From contig JAQVLS010000029.1 of the NCBI GenBank assembly GCA_028704035.1, forward strand, positions 1 to 12,018: a stretch of DNA of 12,018 nucleotides, given 5' to 3'. A program made the position numbers and the translations under genes. This document shows, in pieces, positions 2,430-8,868 of this stretch. The notes under the pieces are model-generated. The model had not been told where the DNA came from. It was given only the letters and a program-made list of their open reading frames with translations, and made no database searches. Each line of letters starts with the position of its first letter. Position 1 is the first letter of the stretch. This DNA is from Desulfotomaculaceae bacterium (GTDB lineage: Bacteria > Bacillota > Desulfotomaculia > Desulfotomaculales > Pelotomaculaceae).

Positions 2430-2684
2430 TTAGTCCAGCCTTTTTATCTTAACTACATACTCTTTTATATCACCATCTGCAAATTCTTCATCTGCAACAT
2501 TACCTTTTTCATCATTTTTTTCTTCTTCTCCATTTTCATCATCGTCGTCGTCCTCATCCACGTCCGCCCATAAGGCGAGCATCGCCGAGACTACGGCACA
2601 TTCATTAATATAATTGTCCCACCAGGCACATTGTTCCTTTCTGCAATCGGCTTTAGCTACCGGACAAAATTTGGTTCCTTCCAT
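2430..2684 (-). CDS. small Cys-containing protein with an acidic tail
   Basis: An 84-residue protein of unknown function. The N-terminal third has four cysteines spaced C7-x6-C14-x4-C19-x9-C29, with the pattern F-C-P-V-A-K-A-D-C-R and E-Q-C-A-W-W. This could bind a metal or iron-sulfur cluster. Residues 46-67 are almost entirely acidic, including D-E-D-D-D-D-D-E, and a short mixed tail ends in K-I-K-R-L-D. I placed the start at ATG 2684 because the only ribosome site, AAAGGA (2702-2697), directly abuts the other in-frame ATG at 2696. Spacing to 2684 is about 12 bases. The gene converges on the amidohydrolase (9-base gap). Similar Cys/Trp-Trp small proteins seem familiar from Peptococcaceae, but I cannot name a family. 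Confidence 0.68.
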   Translation of the reverse strand: MEGTKFCPVAKADCRKEQCAWWDNYINECAVVSAMLALWADVDEDDDDDENGEEEKNDEKGNVADEEFADGDIKEYVVKIKRLD

Positions 2685-2792
2685 TTTTATAACCATTCCT
2701 TTCGCTCAGGGCACAACTATTCAATAGTCTCATGTTTTCGCCCATATCCATAAATATCCTGCCTGATACCGGGCCTATTAGTAACATAAACA

Positions 2793-2822
2793 AGAAACCT
2801 TCCTCCAAAGAGGAAGGTTTCT
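2793..2822 (-). terminator. strong hairpin terminator ending the tandem RNA block
   Basis: A perfect 13-bp stem (2793-2805 with 2810-2822) around a 4-base loop. On the minus strand the stem is followed by TGTTTATG, a fair U-rich tail. On the plus strand it is followed by ATCTTAAG, which is not U-rich, so minus is the likely orientation. It would end transcripts coming from the repeat block and rarA. Confidence 0.65.
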
Positions 2823-3185
2823 ATCTTAAGAGCCCGTAATGACCTACGCTCCAGCCATTATGCATCCCTACGCAGCCTACGACATTCTTTCGACTGTCAT
2901 AGACCATTTACGGAACCCATAATGACCTTTGCTCGACTATCATGGATATCTAGGAAGCCTACAGCAATCTTTCGACTGTTACAGACCTCAGGCTAAAGAA
3001 AATCAGCATCCGACACCCATGATAATCTTAGCTCGACCAATAGATATCCCTTACGCCCCCTACAGCAATCGTTCGGACTGCTGCAGAACCTGCCGAAACA
3101 CCTACCAGTCCACCCGCCGACTATTATACAGAGCCATTTGAACCTATAACAGTCTAGGCCATTACGCACCCTAGTGATAATATTT
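2823..3185 (-). ncRNA. tandem structured RNA of four diverged units, family unknown
   Basis: This noncoding block between rarA and the hairpin at 2793-2822 consists of repeated units beginning (plus coordinates) near 2833, 2916, 3016 and 3101, so 83, 100 and 85 bases apart. Each unit has a conserved CCCATAATGACC-like segment, and three have a CCTACAGCAATCTTTCGACTG-like segment. Read on the minus strand, that second segment folds into an 11-bp stem: 2877-2902 and 2959-2984 with GAAA loops, and 3060-3086 with a CGAAC loop. Paired bases change together between copies, and several pairs are G-U only in the minus-strand RNA (they would be A-C mismatches on plus), which fixes the strand. The fourth unit lacks this hairpin but keeps the other half. 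A further stem, CCGUAA (2913-2908) with UUACGG (2839-2834), can close the last unit. No promoter stands out, so it may be the 3' part of the rarA transcript. I cannot match it to a known RNA family. Confidence 0.6.
2833..3180. repeat. four diverged 83-100 bp direct repeats
   Basis: Direct repeats starting near 2833, 2916, 3016 and 3101. The first three are clear: compare 2876-2905, 2958-2987 and 3059-3090, and also 2833-2845, 2916-2928 and 3016-3028. The fourth is degenerate. The units differ mostly at paired positions of the hairpin described under the RNA entry, so the repeats look old and held together by structure rather than recently amplified. They are not a CRISPR array: the repeats are too long and imperfect, and there are no spacers. 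Confidence 0.75.
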
Positions 3186-3215
3186 TGCCCGGTTAAATAG
3201 ATTTAATTCAACAAA

Positions 3216-5175: not shown

Positions 5176-5367
5176 CTTATTAAGACCCCACAATGCCGTG
5201 CCCACCAAAAGTTTGAACCTGCTCTCACAGGTGGGTGCCCGCCTGGGTGATTTATGTTTCCTCAATAAAGAGGCGTGCAAGCCACATCCAGAGTCGAAGC
5301 TCCCTTTTCTAAGGTGTTGGAACAAAACTTCAGGGCAGACCACGCACACAGCAGGGCGTTTATTACT
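5176..5367 (-). ncRNA. ssrS: 6S RNA (RNA polymerase holoenzyme regulator)
   Basis: 6S RNA mimics an open promoter and binds the housekeeping sigma holoenzyme in stationary phase. The minus strand folds into the 6S shape. The closing stem pairs CCCTGCTGTGTGCGTG (5356-5341) with CACGGCATTGTGGGG (5199-5185). A central bubble is opposed by GTTCCAACACCTTAG and ACATAAATCACCCAGG, and the long terminal arm is CCCACC...GGTGGG with inner hairpin ACCTG/CAGGT (5229-5215 region). The GGGAGCTTCGACT and GGATGTGGC stretches look like those of clostridial 6S RNAs. UUAAG (5370-5366) can also pair with CUUAA (5184-5180), which frames an RNA of about 190 nt. The place, directly after aspS and near rarA, matches bsrA in Bacillus. 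The ends are estimates. Confidence 0.85.
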
Positions 5368-7317: not shown

Positions 7318-8577
7318 TTATTTTTTCCGTTGCAGATATCCAATAATATCTGCAAATATTACTGTTTCCTGCTTTCCCGCGCCCATGTCCCGCACCAGGA
7401 CGGCGCCCCGCGCCAGTTCCTCCGCGCCGATAATTACTGCAAAACGGGCTCCGGATTTCCCGGCATATTTCATCTGCGCTTTCAGGCTGCGTCCCAGGTA
7501 ATCCTTGTCCGCCGAGATACCGGCAGCGCGCAGGCTGAACAGCAGTTTATAAGCCATCTCTGCTGCCTCCGTGCCGGCTGTAACCACAAACACATCTGAC
7601 CTGGCAGAAGTGTCAATGGTAATACCCTGCCGCTCCATTGTCAGGATGATCCGCTCCATACCAAGCGCGTAGCCCACACCGGGAGTGAAAGGCCCGCCGC
7701 AAATCTCAACCAGCCCGTTATAACGGCCGCCGCCGCCGATGGAACTCTGGGCGCCGATATCCCTGGCCATAATTTCAAACGCGGTATGCGTGTAGTAATC
7801 CAGCCCCCGGACCAGCCGCCGGTCTATAACATAAGCAATATTCAAAAGATCAAGGTGTTTTTTCACCCGGGCAAAATGGTCTGCGCAGTCCGGGCAGAGG
7901 CAGTCGAGCGTCGACGGGGCGCCTGAGCCAGCTTCCGCGCAGCGCTGTTCTTTGCAGTCCAGAATGCGTAAGGGATTTTTTTCAAACCTTTCCTGGCAGT
8001 TTCTGCAAAGGACGCCCAAGTTGGGCTGAAAATAATTTTTCAACTCACGGCGCTGTACCGGCCGGCATACCGGACAGCCGACACTGTTGATATGCAGCTC
8101 CAGGTTCTGCAGTCCCAGCCTGCTGTAAAAATCCATAGCCATCGCGATTACTTCGGAGTCTACGGCCGGGTCGTTAGTACCGAAAACCTCTACCCCCAAC
8201 TGGTGAAACTGCCGGAAGCGCCCGGCCTGGGGCCTGTCGTAGCGAAACATCGGCCCGCTGTAAGAAAGCTTAACCGGCTGCGGTCCGGCATATAATTTAT
8301 TTTCCAGGTAGGCTCTTACTGCGGGAGCAGTGTTTTCCGGCCTGAGCGTAATGCTCCGGCCGCCCCGGTCCGTGAAGGTATACATTTCTTTCTCCACTAT
8401 ATCGGTGGTATCGCCGACACCGCGCTGGAACAGCTCGGTATGTTCAAATACAGGCGTCCGGATCTCGTTATAACCATAATGGGCACAAATCTTGAAAAAC
8501 TGATTTTCCACCCAGCGCCATTTTTCTACTTCTTCCGGGATAATGTCATTAGTGCCGCGAGGGCGTGTTGTAAGCAT
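7318..8577 (-). CDS. hisS: histidyl-tRNA synthetase
   Basis: Class II synthetase that charges tRNA-His. The 419-residue length is typical. It starts with the family opening (R-P-R-G-T-N-D-I-I-P) and has L-R-P-E-N-T-A-P, motif 2 (M-F-R-Y-D-R-P-Q-A-G-R-F-R-Q-F), the histidine-binding R-G-L-D-Y-Y-T-H-T-A-F-E, a G-G-G-R-Y-N-G loop and motif 3 (G-Y-A-L-G-M-E-R-I). The C-terminal domain, V-F-V-V-T-A-G-T onward, is the anticodon-binding fold. An insertion holds C-P-V-C, C-R-N-C and C-P-D-C pairs, a possible zinc site. ATG 8577 has AGGAGG 6 bases upstream. First gene of the hisS-aspS operon, controlled by the T-box leader. Confidence 0.96.
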   Translation of the reverse strand: MLTTRPRGTNDIIPEEVEKWRWVENQFFKICAHYGYNEIRTPVFEHTELFQRGVGDTTDIVEKEMYTFTDRGGRSITLRPENTAPAVRAYLENKLYAGPQPVKLSYSGPMFRYDRPQAGRFRQFHQLGVEVFGTNDPAVDSEVIAMAMDFYSRLGLQNLELHINSVGCPVCRPVQRRELKNYFQPNLGVLCRNCQERFEKNPLRILDCKEQRCAEAGSGAPSTLDCLCPDCADHFARVKKHLDLLNIAYVIDRRLVRGLDYYTHTAFEIMARDIGAQSSIGGGGRYNGLVEICGGPFTPGVGYALGMERIILTMERQGITIDTSARSDVFVVTAGTEAAEMAYKLLFSLRAAGISADKDYLGRSLKAQMKYAGKSGARFAVIIGAEELARGAVLVRDMGAGKQETVIFADIIGYLQRKK

Positions 8578-8868
8578 CTAAATCCTCCTTAACAAAACAA
8601 AAACCCGGTCCATGCATCAAGCACAGCCAGGGACGGATATTTCTACCCGCGGTGCCACCCTTTTTCGGAAAAATGTGTTTTTCCCTTGATGCCTGTAACG
8701 GAGGCTGCCGGGCCGGCCTACTTGTGCTGATCACTTTCGGGGGCCGCTCCCGGGTGTTGTTCAACGCCTGTTTACGAGGAAGGCTTTCAGTCGGGGCCTT
8801 CCCTTCCTGTCGTATACCAGGTGCGTTTACTTTTCCCGGTCATCGTTTTTTAAAGATAGAGGAACTCT
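8578..8868 (-). promoter_or_regulatory. T-box leader of hisS-aspS
   Basis: T-box RNAs bind an uncharged tRNA and let transcription continue. The conserved T-box AGGGTGGCACCGCGGGT is at 8661-8645, and the antiterminator partner CCGTCCCT at 8636-8629. Stem I base pairs CCGGG (8839-8835) with CCCGG (8754-8750). The specifier loop has AGUA (8831-8828) opposite GAA (8762-8760), as in a loop E. The next stem pairs ACGC with GCGU. The distal arm includes GGAAGGC/GCCTTCC. The specifier strand after GAA reads CAACAC, holding AAC (8758-8756) overlapping CAC (8756-8754). The UGGN bulge reads UGGC, which pairs with a G discriminator base (Asn, Asp) and not with C73 of bacterial tRNA-His. Confidence 0.93.
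8595..8632 (-). terminator. T-box conditional terminator
   Basis: On the minus strand 8632-8621 pairs with 8615-8604 around a 5-base loop (12 positions, two mismatches), followed by TTTTTGTTTT. It shares CCCU with the antiterminator, so the two folds exclude each other. This is how uncharged tRNA would control hisS-aspS. Confidence 0.85.

Follow-up and report, generated by a model that had tools for sequence, protein, structure and literature searches.

A conserved RNA of predicted star shape, flanked by a promoter-like element and a terminator, and its putative link to the bacterial forespore

The window (the whole 12,018-nt stretch of DNA analysed here) carries a rarA gene with a predicted noncoding RNA, here called the star RNA, just downstream of it on the minus strand. 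Beyond the RNA, at 2430-2696 (minus), lies an ORF for an 88-aa, cysteine-containing and very acidic protein with no Pfam match, a relative of which occupies the same place at two other loci (L003 and L007). The closest named match of the window RarA was from Moorella mulderi (65%), in a comparison from which near relatives may be left out. Against Rfam 15 at the gathering threshold, the window matched only a T-box leader (RF00230, 97.5 bits) at 8626-8852 (minus), upstream of a histidyl-tRNA-synthetase-like ORF at 7318-8577, and a 6S RNA (RF00013, 91.2 bits) at 5181-5360 (minus), between thioredoxin and aspS. Clusters of neighbouring genes were named by reading their sequences, with RarA, thioredoxin, and amidohydrolase assigned by Pfam scan. 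The RNA, its parts, and its flanking elements are as follows.

3204..3209, minus: -35-like element GAATTA, directly after the rarA stop; located with the matrix of 70 homologous upstreams
3181..3187, minus: -10-like element CAAAATA (family consensus CATAATA); from upstream comparison
2793..3174, minus: stand-alone noncoding RNA, predicted from fold, alignment, covariation, and promoter position, with boundaries drawn from sequence
3157..3171, minus: 5' strand of P1, the closing stem; pairing in 99.2% of cells across 70 copies
3119..3154, minus: fused P2/P3 arm; the window row (L001) is gapped there in the alignment
3035..3110, minus: arm P4, proximal and distal stem, with distal hairpin 3060-3086; helices 6 and 7, 97.7% and 98.9% paired
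2935..3027, minus: arm P5, with distal hairpin 2959-2984; helices 8 and 9, 97.9% and 99.1% paired
2853..2927, minus: arm P6, with distal hairpin 2877-2902; helices 12 and 13, 99.0% and 98.2% paired
2830..2844, minus: 3' strand of P1, the closing stem; consensus helix 1
2783..2822, minus: intrinsic terminator, a 13-bp hairpin and T-rich tail; hairpin position conserved in the alignment

The 5' end of the RNA in the window is an estimate, placed 6–7 nt past the -10-like element, and the 3' end is that of the terminator. The terminator hairpin is perfect over 13 bp (2793-2805 pairs with 2810-2822), confirming an earlier sequence-only reading that had noted it with its U-rich tail at the end of the block. 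The predicted minus-strand fold has an energy of -185.1 kcal/mol, compared with -121.0 (sd 5.3) for 100 dinucleotide shuffles (z -12). Two direct repeats were found within the RNA, one of 49 nt in two copies (78% identity, 82 nt apart) and one of 17 nt in three copies, so the repeats that had been reported on the minus strand downstream of rarA are real. They had been taken for diverged tandem units, but rather than separate units they are arms of one multi-branched RNA with a long-range stem (3157-3171/2830-2844), and the three hairpins picked out at the time are the distal stems of P6, P5, and P4. Two finer points are added or corrected: the third loop is not GAAA, and in the second hairpin we read A-U at the fifth pair and place the A-C mismatch at the sixth. 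The proposal of a minus-strand RNA of ~390 nt with a repeated domain and a terminator is supported by both fold and covariation. ORFs inside the region are short and, as far as the ORF listing goes, unconserved. The window copy is itself atypical: its -10 reads CAAAATA, and a deletion has fused P2 with P3, leaving four arms on the junction compared with five in the family, as also happened to P2/P3 in a second copy, L147.

To place this RNA among its relatives, a blastn search was run with the window copy; 71 of 100 relatives, from 41 of 52 genera, contained a match. A covariance model, R1, was built from 57 sequences over 108 positions, covering arm P6 and the 3' strand of P1 only; P6 is the best conserved arm, with an R1 score of 110.2 bits. 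A covariance-model search of relatives had been suggested by the sequence-only reading, and R1 found homologues in 85 of 113 genomes of the same class (45 of 55 genera). In a sample of 398 phylum genomes, 147 had a match at E <= 1e-5, representing 108 of 267 genera. Four of the 50 named genomes searched, out of 80, had a match: Moorella mulderi, Clostridia MAG AS09scLD_21, and Bacillota MAGs all_metabat.193 and AS08sgBPME_442. No R1 match was observed in the cyanobacterial and Chloroflexi genomes among these 50, nor in the Alicyclobacillus pomorum, Alicyclobacillus herbarius, Brevibacillus, and Paenibacillus genomes of the named set. The Moorella mulderi copy is canonical, with a five-arm predicted fold of -259.0 kcal/mol. 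From the 90 class loci, the 71 with a match of 250 nt or more are referred to as near-full copies. Forty distant loci were hand-picked from the phylum matches, strong and weak, mostly one per family; of the nine for which folds were examined, most had the same closing stem and arms, with L241 folding most poorly. Copies can also lie side by side, ~0.5 kb and 2 kb apart at G119:C8 40969-41583 and G023:C134 56377-58649, respectively, and two pairs of similar copies, L020/L021 and L112/L114 (genomes G028 and G053), resemble two old paralogues of the RNA.

The structure was evaluated on alignments of the near-full copies, A1 with 57 of the 71 and A2 with 70, the latter omitting L155, which is cut by a contig end. 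The A2 consensus fold has 142 pairs, of which 97 include at least one sequence changed on both sides, compared with 54.6 +/- 3.4 in shuffles (0 of 500 reach this value). Across the 9881 pair cells, 98.6% are able to pair, and 1000 cells have both sides changed compared with 266 in shuffles; none of the 500 shuffles reached the observed value on any measure. When partners were slid by 1–3 columns, 31–41% of cells paired, a control that flatters the structure because the structure was derived from the same alignment, while the double changes are independent of that. Pairing stands at 98.7% of cells in P2 and 98.2% in P3, with P1 and the two stems each of P4, P5, and P6 at the values listed above. 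The family architecture is a P1-closed junction bearing five long two-tier arms, followed by the terminator. Covariation had been claimed earlier from three copies within the window, which are weak evidence, but the 70 copies from other genomes do show it and support the view that selection keeps the pairs. At the level of aligned sequences, this establishes a conserved RNA of predicted star or rosette shape with its own promoter-like element and terminator.

A second form of conservation was observed within the helices. A triplet consisting of a G.U pair, a Watson-Crick pair, and a U.G pair occurs in six of them, namely P1, P2, P3, and the distal stems of P4, P5, and P6. Among rows with letters at these positions, the complete triplet is found in 64/69 for P1, 67/68 for P2, 58/69 for P3, 55/70 for P4, 66/70 for P5, and 67/70 for P6, while the two wobble pairs alone are conserved in 66–69 of 70 rows. 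Single-sequence folds of class copies contain 7.7 triplets per RNA, compared with 0.8 for the mirror-image motif and 0.9 in shuffles preserving dinucleotide content, and the 40 distant copies contain 5.5 compared with 1.0 mirror-image. Wobble pairs kept in this way, with no switch to Watson-Crick pairing, suggest that a protein recognises them or that they take part in tertiary contacts. Other conserved features are GARA-type loops, repeated internal loops, and GAGC-nAAG linkers that repeat between arms and that presumably resemble UAA/GAN internal loops.

We compared the RNA with known families. The sequence-only reading could not match it to OLE, GEMM, 6S, raiA, or any other family familiar to it, and Rfam 15 scans were likewise empty over the RNA: at E up to 10 the best match of the window region was PyrR, at 22.5 bits against a cut-off of 54, and in 14 other loci, scanned at E up to 0.5, nothing matched within the RNA. 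OLE, ROOL, and GOLLD, which we take to be modelled in Rfam 15, gave no covariance-model match in the window or the 14 other loci. OLE occurs in Clostridia. Like these three, which the excerpted text of PMC12286853 describes as large, highly structured bacterial RNAs of poorly understood function (ROOL and GOLLD being 600 nt and more), the star RNA is large and structured, but its similar arms are arranged as a rosette, its putative promoter is of the forespore type, and it is absent from the phage records searched. CsfG is a forespore or sporulation RNA of Bacillus, and Bvs196, according to a partial source, is a Bacillus sporulation sRNA of 294 nt; both resemble the star RNA in this proposed tie, and the Rfam scan showed no similarity to either, a result that is meaningful for CsfG only if Rfam models it. 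The raiA motif is about 200 nt long. Also known as ModT, it is described in partial source text as structured, conserved in Bacillota, and studied in Clostridioides difficile, but it gave no Rfam match here and is unlike the star RNA in size, architecture, and position. The smtA motif (Soda Lake RNA) is likewise a rare, large (>350 nt) orphan structured RNA, though in the excerpted text of PMC11109978 it is reported only from Thioalkalivibrio, upstream of smtA. No earlier description of the star RNA was found in the literature searched; subscription journals, for the most part, and supplements lay outside this search, so one may exist. A new large structured RNA family is well supported.

The surroundings of the RNA were compared across the 90 class loci, where gene neighbours are constant within lineages and differ between them. 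The lineage-limited neighbours include spoIVA, recJ, ileS, lspA, rluD, sdh, trkA, spoVT, cysteine desulfurase, and rarA. At the 40 distant loci, even the most frequent flanking protein cluster occurs no more than four times. An attempt to read function from conserved neighbours was therefore abandoned, as none recurs beyond lineages in either set. The sequence-only reading had also entertained that the RNA is the 3' end of rarA mRNA. In the window and six other class loci it does follow rarA on the same strand, but the remaining 83 of 90 have other upstream neighbours, and a conserved promoter-like element separates rarA from the RNA; we reject a rarA 3' untranslated region as the general nature of this RNA and regard it as the least credible of the explanations considered. 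A mobile or repeat element spreading by inverted repeats would account for the changing neighbours and for genomes with several RNA places (three in G058, four in G023). We nonetheless consider this very improbable, given that position is kept within families (8 loci beside lspA, 12 at ileS, and 13 at spoIVA, by cluster) and that promoter, RNA, and terminator keep a constant order across loci and move as a unit. Nor was the presence in phage or plasmid records that would be expected of such an element observed: there was no match in 50,697 phage records (queried with the window copy) or 72,556 plasmid records (queried with the L004 copy), and 26 viral contigs with the core pattern did not match R1.

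The promoter-like element was characterised from the 70 class upstreams, which share the pattern GnATAA-15/16-CATAATA. Within the -35 core, A is conserved at 97% and T at 100%; the spacer is 15 nt in 57 of 70 and 16 nt in 12 of 70; and the letters of the -10 CATAATA reach 72, 100, 61, 81, 80, 100, and 100%, in order. The -10 ends 6–7 nt ahead of the RNA in 59 of the 70 loci. A matrix trained on these 70 RNA upstreams alone was then applied to 40 held-out loci, where the best site in a ~330-nt stretch fell 0–16 nt before the P1 strand in 34; the remaining 6 had no site at the right place, and some sites were low-scoring. The mean held-out score was 10.6, whereas the reverse complement averaged 5.8 and shuffles preserving dinucleotide content averaged 4.6, and 24 of 40 loci exceeded the shuffles' 95th percentile compared with 4 of 40 reversed. 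The Moorella mulderi copy has AAATAT-15-GGGCATAATAC directly ahead of its five-arm fold.

The same matrix was used to score the upstreams of sporulation genes, with 30 loci each for SASP and SpoIIR taken from longer match lists. SASP genes belong to sigma-G, SpoIIR to sigma-F, and SpoIVA to the mother-cell factor sigma-E. SASP upstreams had a mean score of 11.2, compared with 5.0 reversed and 5.3 in shuffles that permute non-overlapping dinucleotides; half (15/30) lay above the 95th percentile and half (15/30) below it, and many contain ACATAA-15/16-CATACTAA-like sites about 50–60 nt before the domain. SpoIIR upstreams averaged 7.3 against 3.1 and scored at least 11.2 in 7 of 30, against 1 of 30 reversed. 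Among controls, 3 of 122 other ORF upstreams and 0 of 11 spoIVA upstreams reached 11.2. We infer from the high scores upstream of SASP that the element is a forespore sigma-F/sigma-G promoter and that transcription probably takes place in the forespore; a forespore-type -35/-10 pair beside the start, as a member of that regulon would have, is present here. The exact letters of the B. subtilis sigma-F and sigma-G consensus sequences were taken as background. For C. difficile, the excerpted text of PMC3789822 describes sigma-F and sigma-G promoters as alike and as similar to their B. subtilis counterparts; a G ahead of the -10 marks sigma-F, and an A behind it marks sigma-G. In the class RNAs, the -10 is preceded by G (87%) and G (75%) and followed by C (47%) or T (28%), letters that tentatively favour sigma-F over sigma-G for the class. 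Eleven of the 30 SpoIIR upstreams scored at least 9, and, unlike the RNA set, none of the 11 has GG before the -10.

An alternative to forespore expression is that this is a vegetative regulatory or housekeeping RNA read by sigma-A, its link with spore formers reflecting common descent only. The composition of the sample is compatible with this, since SpoIVA (PF09547) was found in 336 of 398 sampled phylum genomes, and most RNAs there would therefore be linked with spore formers. In favour of a tie to spore formation, SpoIVA is present in 142 of 147 RNA carriers compared with 194 of 251 non-carriers (overlap counted by eye from genome lists; Fisher p 4e-8, ignoring phylogeny). On the other side, five carriers had no SpoIVA match, and these have completeness values of 97% (G200), 90% (G446), 80% (G242), 75% (G353), and 61% (G399). 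Within the class, SASP was found in 111 of 113 genomes, and the two without it also lack the RNA. Also in line with the sigma-A reading, SASP persists in 26 of the 28 class genomes that lack the RNA. With many spore formers lacking it, the RNA is not required for sporulation in general. Against this reading, the GnATAA -35 is unlike TTGACA, a consensus scan detected no sigma-70 site at 3209-3181, and the RNA-trained matrix recognises SASP upstreams and few others. We consider a sigma-A RNA improbable on balance. Two RNA copies have a SASP gene directly upstream on the same strand (G112:C6 34670-35342 and G114:C87 29299-29983), and in another genome a 6S RNA lies 0.6–0.7 kb upstream of a star RNA copy (L028).

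Taking these observations together, we think it likely that the star RNA represents a new forespore RNA family with its own promoter and intrinsic terminator, folded as a rosette and perhaps acting as a multivalent scaffold or sponge. During endospore formation, a forespore sigma factor (sigma-F or sigma-G) would transcribe the RNA from its own promoter, and the intrinsic terminator would end the transcript, which would fold into a P1-closed junction with five long two-tier arms (four in the window). The RNA may then be packed into the forespore, where the wobble motifs, one per helix, might each hold a copy of the same protein; within the forespore or the finished spore, the RNA would thereby serve as a multivalent scaffold or sponge. 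Both the packing and the part assigned to the repeated wobble motif are guesses. CsrA-type sponge RNAs of the CsrB kind would be recognised by many copies of one protein-binding motif together with a known binder; here a repeated G.U/pair/U.G motif was observed, which is at most a candidate binding site. Multivalent binding had been raised by the sequence-only reading and may hold, with some support from this motif. That reading included neither the closing stem nor the size of the family, and it had no forespore-type promoter or spore-former link.

The main rival to protein binding is an RNA-only assembly, in which arms dock into other copies to build an ordered homo-oligomer without a dedicated protein. 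The long conserved arms, GARA-type loops, and repeated internal loops would suit such an assembly, and homo-oligomers have been reported for OLE, ROOL, and GOLLD in the excerpted text of PMC12286853. The Rfam scans, however, showed no sequence or structure relation to those RNAs, and the oligomer contacts here are hypothetical; we judge this assembly rather unlikely. The wobble motif does not separate it from the protein reading, because it may serve tertiary contacts or protein binding. A broader proposal, which we hold only tentatively, is that of a spore-specific RNA machine: a five-arm RNA with pseudo-symmetry, produced in the forespore alone and old enough for its phylum-wide spread, which would organise or protect a component of the spore core, each arm carrying the same docking site, as an RNA-protein or RNA-only particle.

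Large structured RNAs with conservation across more than a hundred genera are few, and all the known ones have proved important. If made in the forespore, the star RNA would add a large noncoding transcript to a stage of spore development that has been described almost entirely in terms of proteins, and it may have an overlooked role in building bacterial spores or keeping them alive. The claim is directly testable in Moorella mulderi, which is in culture and has a canonical copy. Genomes of group f11/g21 come from spore formers that have SASP and SpoIVA but no RNA, or only a weak match to it, and they offer a natural contrast for the function of the RNA.
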